Below are positions 29,816 through 32,403 of a stretch of 64,000 nucleotides of DNA, piece after piece; the first letter of the stretch is position 1, and every line of letters starts with the position of its first letter. Origin of the DNA: Flavobacterium sp. LC2016-13 (GTDB lineage Bacteria; Bacteroidota; Bacteroidia; Flavobacteriales; Flavobacteriaceae); the NCBI RefSeq assembly GCF_009707955.1, contig NZ_WMDQ01000018.1:1-64000 (forward strand), given 5' to 3'. The notes under the pieces were generated by a model that made no database searches, was not told the origin of the DNA, and saw only the letters and a program-made list of their open reading frames with translations. Made by a program: the position numbers and the translations under genes.

Positions 29816-30268
29816 TTACTCCCTCTTTAAACTCAAACCAAGCGGAACCATCAAAATTCCTTTTTCGTAAATGTTCAAATAAAGCTTAACAGGCTTTTTT
29901 TGTCCGTCCCATTTAAGTTCATAAACATTCAGAAATCCGGCTCCCATATCGCTTCTTTTGGTTGGAAAAGGGCAGCAGGTTTCTAATCTTATATAAGTAA
30001 TTTTTTCACCATTTGGACCAGCTAATGCATTTAGGAAACGAGTTTCGTTTAAAGCTTCATCTCTTGTATTTCGGTAAAAAATATTGATAGGATAATCAGG
30101 ATCGTAGCCGTATTTTTTGTCTGTACTGAAAAGAGTAATAACAAAAGTATTGTCTTTTTTCAAAACTAAATCAGGCGCATTATCATCTACATTTTTCAAA
30201 GTAGATTTTGTGCTTATACAAGAAGTTGCAGTAATTAGTAAAACGATAAATAAAGCTAATTTTTTCAT
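29816..30268 (-). CDS. Small lipoprotein, unknown
   Basis: 150 residues with lipobox TATSC and a mature part starting with a Lys/Thr-rich linker. Features: KKYGYDPDYPINIFYRNT, ETCCPFPTKRSDMGAG and a C-terminal beta-rich end (GILMVPLGL). A related small flavobacterial lipoprotein group is, from memory, sometimes labelled a Kdo aldolase in databases; nothing in this sequence supports that activity. First gene of the three-gene envelope run. Confidence 0.6.
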   Translation of the reverse strand: MKKLALFIVLLITATSCISTKSTLKNVDDNAPDLVLKKDNTFVITLFSTDKKYGYDPDYPINIFYRNTRDEALNETRFLNALAGPNGEKITYIRLETCCPFPTKRSDMGAGFLNVYELKWDGQKKPVKLYLNIYEKGILMVPLGLSLKRE

Positions 30269-30388
30269 GGTTATTGGTATTAGTCGTACAAATATAAAAG
30301 CAAAATTGCTTTTACCACAGATTAAAAGAATTAAATTAATTTAAATTTTAAGCTGTGTTAATCTTTAAAATCTCTAACGAAAATTAAA

Positions 30389-31075
30389 TTAGCTCGTAAC
30401 CAATTTAGTCTTTGAATTCAATTTTAACACACCAACTACAATCAGATATTGTGCCACAAGATAGGTAAGCATAATAATAAGTGCACTTTTTTGGATTGGC
30501 ATATAAAACTTATTGATTGCCAGAATGCTATCTGAAATAACAAATGCAATTGCACCAATAAATACCAATTTGCTTCCCGATTTTTTCCAAACTAAAAAAC
30601 CATTAAACGCAAGCAAAAGCATAATCGAAATAACGGTTGCGTAAACCGTTACAGGTATTTTTAAATCGCCTAAACTTGGCGACAAAACAGAAAGTATTCC
30701 AAATAAATAAATCATAATAACAAGGCTTCCTATAGCAAAAAGAGATTTATTTGTTTTGGTTTCGGTCTTAATTTGTTTGCTAAAAACGATGCAATACATA
30801 ATATGCGAAATCAGAAACGAAACTAATCCGAGAATAAAATAAATTTCGGCAATGTCAGCAAAAAGTAAAATAACATCGCCAATCCAGGAAAATAATAAAG
30901 CAGTTAAAAGCGTATTTCTAAGAGGAAACCGCTCATGAAGATAAACAACAAATCCTAATACAGGAATTAAAATAGGTTTTAGATATAAATCTAAATTCTC
31001 ATGCCCTAAATATAAAATAAGCAAATAAAAGAGGCTGATGACAAAATAAAGTTTAATAAATAAAGTATGTTTCAT
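30389..31075 (-). CDS. YhhN family membrane protein (lysoplasmalogenase-like)
   Basis: 228 residues with about eight membrane helices. Family motifs are present: KPILIPVLG, FSWIGDVILLF, FLISHIMYC, GAIAFVISDSILAINKF and TYLVAQYLI, with the paired acidic residues (GD, SD) of the YhhN/TMEM86 fold. Characterised TMEM86 and some YhhN proteins hydrolyse the vinyl-ether bond of lysoplasmalogens. It starts 5 nt after the fatty-acid-hydroxylase-type gene, giving a tight two-gene operon. Substrate here is inferred. Confidence 0.85.
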   Translation of the reverse strand: MKHTLFIKLYFVISLFYLLILYLGHENLDLYLKPILIPVLGFVVYLHERFPLRNTLLTALLFSWIGDVILLFADIAEIYFILGLVSFLISHIMYCIVFSKQIKTETKTNKSLFAIGSLVIMIYLFGILSVLSPSLGDLKIPVTVYATVISIMLLLAFNGFLVWKKSGSKLVFIGAIAFVISDSILAINKFYMPIQKSALIIMLTYLVAQYLIVVGVLKLNSKTKLVTS

Positions 31076-31080
31076 GGGGG

Positions 31081-32352
31081 TTAAGAATTGATTAGCAGAC
31101 TGGGGGTAGTTTTAAAGTCGATAGTAACGAAATAAATTGAAGTTAAAAATGATAAGCTCAAATAGCTTAAAATGATATAATTAGATACAGATAAAACCTG
31201 ATTTAAACCAAACCAGTCACCATAATAAGATATAATCGCAATGGCAATAATTAAACGAAATCCTTCCCAAAAAACGGCATATTTGCTTTTGTCCATCAAT
31301 TCAGAATAACTGTAAATCGTTATTAAAATAAAAAAGCCATAAAGAAAGATATTTGGCAAACCAATTTTAGCAACATTATCAAATAAATAAGTCACAAACA
31401 AAAGTGTAATCAACATTTGAGTTACAGACCAATAAATAAGTTTTTGAGAGTTTTGCGTGCCATATTTTTCAAAATTAAAAACATTTTCAATTTTGTTTAC
31501 AGGATATTTTTCTTCAAAATTTTCTGGGCGCCAGCCTGTTGGTTTAAACCAAATAGTCAATTTATCTTTCCAGTTTTCAGCACGCCACGCATCAGAAATT
31601 AATAAACTTAAATGCTGAAAATTAATCTTAATCGGATTCCAGGTATTTGCCGGTCTCGTAATACCAAAAACAGGAGGAACATCATCTAATTCGGCTTGAA
31701 AAGTACCGAAAAGTTTATCCCAAAAAATAAATATTTGCGAATGATTTTTATCTAAATATTCGGGATTAATGGCGTGATGCACACGATGATGTGATGGAGT
31801 AACCAAAATATTTTCGACAAAACCCATTTTTTTAATGTGTTTTGTATGATACCAAAACTGAAGGAATAAATGCAGAGGCAAAGTAATGGCAATTACTGTG
31901 GCAGGAACACCCAATAATGCTGCAGGAATCAATAAAAAAGTAAACAGATTAACCAAACTTGCCACAGGTTGTCGCAATGCACAAGCCAGATTAAACTCTT
32001 CGCTGCTGTGGTGAATCGCATGTTTGTTCCAAAGAAAATTAATTTGATGCGCTAATCTATGGCTCCAATATCCGTAAAAATCGATGACAAAAAAGCCAAT
32101 ACAATACGAAAGAACATTGGCTTCGAGATGAAAAAAAGCAATTTTAGAAACCAGCCATTCGTACGAAATAAAAGTCAGACTTAATCCTAAAACATCCTTC
32201 ACAGAATTGGTAATTCCGGAGCTAATGCTTGAAACGCTATCTATAAGAGGTGCAGTGTCTTCTTTTTTATAGATGCCGTATATTTTCTCAATTATAATTA
32301 AAATTAAAAAAACAGGCGTAGCGATAATTAATATCTTTCCATATTCTTCCAT
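31081..32352 (-). CDS. Fatty-acid-hydroxylase/sterol-desaturase superfamily, alkylglycerol-monooxygenase-like
   Basis: 423 residues, multi-pass. The diiron His boxes are HRLAH (HX3H), HAIHHS (HX2HH) and HHRVHH (HX2HH), followed by NHSQIFIFWDKLFGTF, a pattern shared with alkylglycerol monooxygenase (TMEM195/AGMO), which cleaves O-alkyl ethers. A long C-terminal part has several more membrane helices. The start codon lies 2 bp from the terminator hairpin of clpS, and the loop of that hairpin holds its only visible -7 box. YhhN follows 5 nt downstream, suggesting an ether-lipid cleavage pair; the substrate is inferred. Confidence 0.8.
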   Translation of the reverse strand: MEEYGKILIIATPVFLILIIIEKIYGIYKKEDTAPLIDSVSSISSGITNSVKDVLGLSLTFISYEWLVSKIAFFHLEANVLSYCIGFFVIDFYGYWSHRLAHQINFLWNKHAIHHSSEEFNLACALRQPVASLVNLFTFLLIPAALLGVPATVIAITLPLHLFLQFWYHTKHIKKMGFVENILVTPSHHRVHHAINPEYLDKNHSQIFIFWDKLFGTFQAELDDVPPVFGITRPANTWNPIKINFQHLSLLISDAWRAENWKDKLTIWFKPTGWRPENFEEKYPVNKIENVFNFEKYGTQNSQKLIYWSVTQMLITLLFVTYLFDNVAKIGLPNIFLYGFFILITIYSYSELMDKSKYAVFWEGFRLIIAIAIISYYGDWFGLNQVLSVSNYIILSYLSLSFLTSIYFVTIDFKTTPSLLINS

Positions 32353-32354
32353 AA

Positions 32355-32403
32355 AAAAAACGTTATAAATTATTCAAATATAGAATAATTTATAACGTTT
32401 TTT
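32355..32403 (-). terminator. Terminator after clpS, with -7 box in its loop
   Basis: A perfect 21-bp stem (32355-32375 with 32383-32403) with a 7-nt loop and a T-run on the minus strand. The loop region reads TATATTTG on the minus strand (32375-32382), an exact -7 box for the next gene. Confidence 0.85.
32375..32382 (-). promoter_or_regulatory. -7 box in the terminator loop, candidate promoter of the ether-lipid-type operon
   Basis: TATATTTG matches TAnnTTTG. It lies 22 bp from the start codon of the hydroxylase-type gene. No -33 TTG at standard spacing. Confidence 0.4.

Follow-up and report, generated by a model that had tools for sequence, protein, structure and literature searches.

The window analyzed here, which is the whole stretch of 64,000 nucleotides under study, comes from a Flavobacterium genome of 5.9 Mb (G000). 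Two genes of its minus strand lie 5 nt apart, counted in ORF coordinates from the stop codon of the first to the start codon of the second. The upstream gene (31081-32352, minus strand) encodes an alkylglycerol monooxygenase (AGMO)-like di-iron hydroxylase of 423 amino acids from the FA_hydroxylase family (PF04116), and the downstream gene (30389-31075, minus strand) encodes a membrane protein of 228 amino acids from the YhhN/TMEM86 family (PF07947), a putative lysoplasmalogenase. Both ORFs, and the 5-nt spacing between them, were found on the minus strand exactly where the initial annotation of this DNA had placed them. Read along that strand, the gene order is prmA (PF06325), clpS (PF02617), hydroxylase, YhhN, and then an ORF starting at 30268, for which no Pfam match was obtained. 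A patchily present stretch separates the pair from a DAHP-synthase-family gene (PF00793) and contains a gene of the arylamine N-acetyltransferase family (PF00797; 28023-28811, minus strand).

The host genome encodes four further FA_hydroxylases beside the hydroxylase of the pair. Its second YhhN match is weak (22 bits, below the cut-off; contig C2, L208:7200-7895) and overlaps the end of an NAD-dependent DNA ligase gene; relatives of this match, themselves weak, recur in several Flavobacterium genomes.

A candidate promoter within the probable clpS terminator

Between clpS and the hydroxylase gene lies a 21-bp hairpin with a 7-nt loop (32355-32403, minus strand), which shows compensatory changes and which we read as the terminator of clpS. 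The hairpin was aligned across 37 of 81 loci (33 of them distinct), which included the window and were picked for variety, with loci lacking the box described below left out. In this alignment, 95.9% of the pair cells are standard and both sides change in 10 of the 21 pairs. Four of five measures beat all 500 shuffles and the fifth beats 499, and all of them beat slid versions of the alignment.

The hairpin loop, together with its closing base, carries TATATTTG (32375-32382, minus strand), which fits the flavobacterial -7 box, TAnnTTTG, described as lying at -12 to -5 and accompanied by a median leader of 24 nt (PMC9723704, in excerpt). The box is present at 78 of the 81 loci, the exceptions being L117, L174, and L176. 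The sequence TATATTTG is not rare, occurring nine times in the window where 8.1 occurrences are expected, and it is the conservation of the box, rather than its rarity, that is evidence for a -7-like element. A scan for sigma-70-type promoters, which was not made for this phylum, gave no excess. From the position of the box, transcription is predicted to start at about 32370, 18 nt ahead of the hydroxylase start codon, and the pair seems to have a promoter of its own, set into the clpS terminator. The region behind clpS was also inspected in genomes that lack one or both genes. A T-rich hairpin of another kind was seen by eye in many of the 35 hydroxylase-less genomes in which clpS was located; one genome without the pair (G127) has kept a similar stem, with a different loop and the box gone, and one that has YhhN only (G155) has kept the -7-like box. 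Across loci L097 to L176 and the window, the hairpin arms turn over while the box in the loop stays. A further copy of TATATTTG (30289-30296, minus strand) precedes the following ORF (start 30268) by about as much as the first copy precedes the hydroxylase, and it lies beside a hairpin behind YhhN.

Family membership and key residues of the two proteins

The family names given in the initial annotation were right. The hydroxylase belongs to the superfamily described by PF04116, scoring 94.3 bits where the Pfam gathering score is 31, and YhhN belongs to PF07947, with 148.5 bits against a gathering score of 25.6. The hydroxylase also has a weak match to the AGMO C-terminal domain (AGMP_C, PF24858), which at 16.5 bits (E value, 0.0088) stays below the cut-off of 28.3; paired hydroxylases from a second family, described below, score 21.4 and 20.7 bits against the same cut-off. 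The residues reported as essential in human AGMO are nine histidines together with Q162, D233, N235, Y236, W243, and D244 (PMC7911779, in excerpt). Fourteen of these 15 residues are present in the window protein, namely all nine histidines and five of the six others; the sixth, Tyr236, is replaced by His204. With respect to the human protein, the first six positions share one offset and the other nine are shifted by two residues. Because position 236 is a histidine, we filed the protein as AGMO-like and not as AGMO. In other genera, this position is Leu in 28 and Met in 1 of 29 hydroxylase loci.

Four hydroxylase positions that were counted again are invariant in 80 of 80 loci (the best 80 of 344 matches), and among 24 loci of the genus the sole deviant at the re-counted positions is L091, the interrupted copy of genome G167. 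Gln162 is kept in all of the best 80 of 344 loci and in each of the 29 hydroxylase loci from other genera. In paralogues, the equivalent position is Ile or Leu in seven of seven rows, two of which represent one gene of the host genome, and Gln162 thus marks the AGMO-like class. Likeness to animal AGMO (TMEM195; EC 1.14.16.5) extends to the FA_hydroxylase family, the histidines, most of the further essential residues, and a weak AGMP_C match. The window protein differs from it in the histidine at Tyr236, in the sub-cut-off score for AGMP_C, in a host genome without a detected tetrahydrobiopterin (BH4)-recycling dehydratase, and in having relatives that include a short form of about 300 amino acids. 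Tetrahydrobiopterin as the cofactor of the hydroxylase is in doubt, because the BH4-recycling pterin-4a-carbinolamine dehydratase (PF01329) was not found in the host genome and, across 61 Flavobacterium genomes, is not positively linked to the hydroxylase, being present in 9 of the 25 genomes that have the hydroxylase and in 17 of the 36 that do not.

The sole NCBIfam match of the hydroxylase is the OlsE ornithine lipid hydroxylase equivalog (NF052566), with which it shares the FA_hydroxylase family and an alignment over 145 residues, but the score of 59 bits lies far under the cut-off of 475, and an identification as OlsE was rejected. A structure model of the hydroxylase was discarded as too poor (mean pLDDT, 50.8). 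No solved structure related by sequence to either protein was found at the limits used.

For TMEM86A and TMEM86B, eight residues have been proposed as catalytic (K43, G81, D82, H104, G182, S189, D190, and Y213 of TMEM86A), and mutation of these affected activity, with the exception of G81 of TMEM86A (PMC11994398, in excerpt). All eight are present in the window YhhN as K33, G66, D67, H91, G174, S181, D182, and Y205, and the eight positions are invariant in 80 of 80 loci (the best 80 of 344). The hydropathy profile shows eight segments, as many as the membrane helices expected of the family. The YhhN proteins of Legionella pneumophila and Mycobacterium tuberculosis have been reported as lysoplasmalogenases, with an activity that requires a free sn-2 hydroxyl (PMC9052158, in excerpt). 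The window YhhN, a putative enzyme, shares with these two and with human TMEM86A/B the PF07947 domain, the eight membrane segments, and the eight proposed catalytic residues; it differs from them in that its gene sits behind an AGMO-like gene. A structure model of YhhN (pLDDT, 88.0) gave no Foldseek match in the PDB at an E value of 0.001 or lower. A second look with VIA returned tied matches to seven-helix proteins at Z scores of about 9 to 12, comprising a designed GPCR-like fold, GPCRs, rhodopsins, and the alkaline ceramidase ACER3 (6g7o; Z, 11.0; rmsd, 3.8; 172 aligned). This likeness of the model may reflect only a common helical-bundle arrangement, and for that reason no function was drawn from the fold match.

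Adjacency and co-occurrence of the two genes

In a sample of 61 Flavobacterium genomes, orthologues of both genes were set apart by gaps in the scores (at least 392 bits for the hydroxylase, next score 150; at least 153 bits for the matching YhhN, next score 36). The hydroxylase is found in 25 of the 61 genomes, in one of them (G167) as an interrupted gene, and the matching YhhN in 26; one genome (G155) has YhhN alone and 35 have neither gene. YhhN lies directly downstream, on the same strand, in all 25 hydroxylase-bearing genomes (Fisher P value of the association, 3e-16, with kinship ignored). Among further loci, pairing holds throughout the best 80 of 344, and all of these have prmA and clpS upstream of the pair; one locus that carries the pair (L128) is titled F. 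johnsoniae, a species used in the laboratory. In genomes without the pair, the genes normally found downstream of it often come next after clpS; in G127 the next gene follows directly. On a PrmA/ClpS tree of the genus, the pair changed state at least seven times, four of these changes being forced by well-supported branches. As the two genes touch, a single deletion removes both, and their joint gain and loss within the genus was therefore dropped as functional evidence. YhhN has also outlived its neighbor. It is kept behind clpS in G155, where the hydroxylase is lost; it is still open in G167, where the hydroxylase is interrupted by a stop; and it is intact in G372 (L493), a genome outside the 61-genome sample, where it follows a hydroxylase remnant with about 63 alignable residues. 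YhhN hence need not depend on the hydroxylase.

Outside the genus, we turned to a family sample of 149 genomes from 148 genera. A hydroxylase of the long form is present in 41 of these genomes (at least 375 bits; next score, 190), and YhhN in 65 at an E value of 0.001 or lower and in 54 at 1e-10 or lower, the latter referred to as strong YhhN. In none of the 26 genomes of other genera that have both genes are the two adjacent; among the matches listed, they lie on separate contigs or with some 15 kb or more between them, G143 being the closest. Likewise, YhhN was not found within 1.5 kb of the gene at any of 29 hydroxylase loci from other genera, nor a hydroxylase near any of 29 YhhN loci. In a phylum sample of 296 genomes, 54 have YhhN, and the loci of the best 30 matches, the window's own among them, were inspected. 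Among the 29 loci other than the window's, the hydroxylase lies directly upstream of YhhN in 10 of 11 from Flavobacterium, two of these 11 genomes (G177 and G197) having already been in the genus sample, and in 3 of 18 others. All three (G285, G340, and G325) come from a single second family within the same class and have the same gene order; a fourth YhhN genome of that family (G209) is unpaired. Their hydroxylases have an ALRQ motif and a His at position 236 and are 34%, 32%, and 34% identical to that of the window, respectively, and the paired genes overlap as called, by 11 nt in L483 and L496. The hydroxylase tree rejects a grouping of these three with Flavobacterium (AU P value, 1e-45) and places them in a separate lineage, so that the pair was not simply passed across families. 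The YhhN tree, with AU P values of 0.215 and 0.167, favors neither a pair formed twice nor an old operon split elsewhere. Similar proteins occur in 205 plasmid records, none of which covers 80% of the query.

AGMO-like and YhhN genes tend to occur together in the family even when they are unlinked. For the long form, a test fixed in advance by the earlier finding, strong YhhN is present in 25 of 41 genomes with the hydroxylase and in 29 of 108 without it (Fisher P value, 2e-4). Among YhhN genomes lacking the long form, the majority gave a middle-scoring match, and a short AGMO-like class of about 300 amino acids was spotted in this way after the data had been seen. It occurs in 29 of the 149 genomes, of which only G096 also has the long form, and its border follows a score gap in a search with one such protein (at least 290 versus at most 234 bits). 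Of 20 fetched loci, 19 are truly of the class, with Gln162 in 19 of 19 and a His at position 236 in 18 of 19. Loci of the short class (L423-L441 and L443-L471) show the ALRQ motif and a strong tie to YhhN. When either form is counted, strong YhhN is present in 49 of 69 genomes with an AGMO-like enzyme, 20 of the 69 being without it, and in 5 of 80 genomes without such an enzyme (P value, 2e-17); at an E value of 0.001 or lower, the counts are 51 of 69 versus 14 of 80. A third, related class was hand-picked as a control and has YhhN in 14 of 50 genomes with it versus 40 of 99 without (P value, 0.15). P values of the combined test are optimistic, because the short class was recognized afterwards and the control class was picked by hand. 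Some family genomes are incomplete; among the five exceptions, G003 is 80% and G015 84% complete.

To compare dependent with independent change of the two genes, we used a PrmA/ClpS tree that covers 135 genomes, the window genome being masked and 14 family genomes that have no usable PrmA being absent. The likelihood ratio was 63.9 for both forms together, 22.4 for the long form (27.5 with YhhN taken at 1e-3 instead of 1e-10), and 18.2 for the short form, on a tree that is built from two short proteins, has many weak branches, and is used in tests of a kind that can overstate few events. In 136 simulations without dependence, the 95% point was 8.3 and the maximum 14.1, values that are perhaps slightly low, as the dependent model was given a single start on the simulated data and three on the real data. 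The control class reached 11.5 (nominal P value, 0.02) without a positive raw association, and independent-pairs tests found few resolved changes. The pairing pointed out in the initial annotation is borne out by every hydroxylase-bearing Flavobacterium genome of the sample, by its recurrence in another family, and by unlinked co-occurrence, but adjacency outside the genus is rare; pairing is restricted, yet not random.

Proposed function of the pair

AGMO cleaves the alkyl ethers of alkylglycerols and lyso-alkyl phospholipids, and TMEM86B the vinyl ether of lysoplasmalogens (PMC9131029, in excerpt). The literature consulted in excerpt (PMC11994398, PMC7911779, and PMC9131029) agrees with the initial annotation that the animal relatives of the two proteins cleave alkyl and vinyl ethers. 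As the likeliest of the readings considered, we tentatively propose that the pair forms a single transcription unit whose products break the ether bonds of lyso lipids, most likely derived from eukaryotes or anaerobes. The AGMO-like enzyme would hydroxylate O-alkyl glycerols or lyso-alkyl phospholipids at the ether carbon, and the hemiacetal so formed would collapse, releasing a fatty aldehyde together with glycerol or its phospho-base. From lysoplasmalogens, YhhN would release a fatty aldehyde and the corresponding head group by hydrolyzing the vinyl ether, so that the two enzymes would jointly clear both kinds of ether bond from lyso lipids. An aldehyde dehydrogenase or a phospholipase would be expected to accompany a pathway of this kind. 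The substrates would probably be taken up, since aerobic bacteria are said, in the excerpted text of PMC9052158, to be without plasmalogens and since no PEDS1-like gene was found: the CarF/PEDS1 family (PF10520) has matches in 0 of 61 genus genomes, a count that is no proof of absence, as the control was silent too.

In favor of this ether-lipid unit are the 14 of 15 AGMO and 8 of 8 TMEM86 residues, the adjacency, the co-occurrence of unlinked genes, the recurrence of the pair in another family, and the lysoplasmalogenase activity of YhhN proteins elsewhere. Counted against it are the changed Tyr236, the failure to find PF01329 in the host genome, the lack of a strong YhhN in 20 of the 69 genomes that have an AGMO-like enzyme, the 0 of 26 adjacent pairs elsewhere in the family, the retention of YhhN in G155, G167, and G372, whose hydroxylase is lost, broken, and reduced to a remnant, respectively, and the control genomes of Escherichia coli and Corynebacterium glutamicum, which match the YhhN profile and not PF04116.

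FA_hydroxylase proteins act on many different lipid substrates. The hydroxylase could accordingly act on a native lipid, such as an aminolipid, the kind of substrate that OlsE uses, with YhhN acting on that lipid or on a modified one, in a membrane remodelling unrelated to ether lipids. OlsE as the sole NCBIfam match, the substitution of Tyr236, the dehydratase not found in the host genome, and the lack of PF10520 matches in the genus, with its silent control, all fit such a role. We nevertheless regard it as rather unlikely, given that the OlsE score is so far under its cut-off, that the Gln162 of AGMO is kept in the best 80 of 344 loci and is Ile or Leu in all seven paralogue rows, and that the YhhN family has lysoplasmalogenase activity where tested. 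Improbable to a greater degree is that YhhN is a stand-alone detoxifier of lysolipids and the hydroxylase unrelated to it, the adjacency in Flavobacterium stemming from one event and being kept by a stable locus. The persistence of YhhN in the three genomes without an intact hydroxylase, the single conserved prmA-clpS frame around the pair, the lack of adjacency in other genera of the family, and the existence of bacteria with YhhN and without PF04116 are in line with this explanation, but the co-occurrence of unlinked genes over the family and the adjacency in a second family, there with another hydroxylase lineage, argue against it. It is very improbable that the AGMO-like enzymes of Bacteroidota work without tetrahydrobiopterin and leave the cleavage unfinished, desaturating or otherwise activating the alkyl ether so that YhhN hydrolyzes the resulting vinyl ether and the two proteins act in succession within a single oxygen-dependent bacterial route of ether-lipid breakdown. 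The substitution of Tyr236, the dehydratase that was not found, and the occurrence of strong YhhN in this family mostly where an AGMO-like enzyme exists would agree with such a route; the survival of YhhN after the hydroxylase in three genomes speaks against it.

Read as an ether-lipid unit, the pair points toward a bacterial pathway that has yet to be described and that can be tested. Both enzyme families are known, and it is their combination that is new and statistically supported, with a function that we infer; no published description of the pair, or of a bacterial link between AGMO and YhhN, was found in the open-access literature. The excerpted text of PMC9052158 raises as a puzzle the presence of a lysoplasmalogenase in bacteria without plasmalogen synthesis, and the tie of YhhN to the hydroxylase, through an operon in each of two families and through co-occurrence across one family, supplies a concrete partner for that puzzle. 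If the ether-lipid proposal is true, the animal enzymes of ether-lipid breakdown would have a bacterial counterpart in the pair, which might also supply an AGMO-type protein that is easier to work with.

Elsewhere in the family, YhhN has recurrent neighbors of other kinds, among them a sigma-70-type factor, an NDH2-like dehydrogenase, and a TonB-receptor-like gene, which look like ordinary synteny. In the stretches that were read from other genera, divergent YhhN copies also stand in tandem, seven of them in L414 (G138), four in L415 (G096), and two in L413 (G143).
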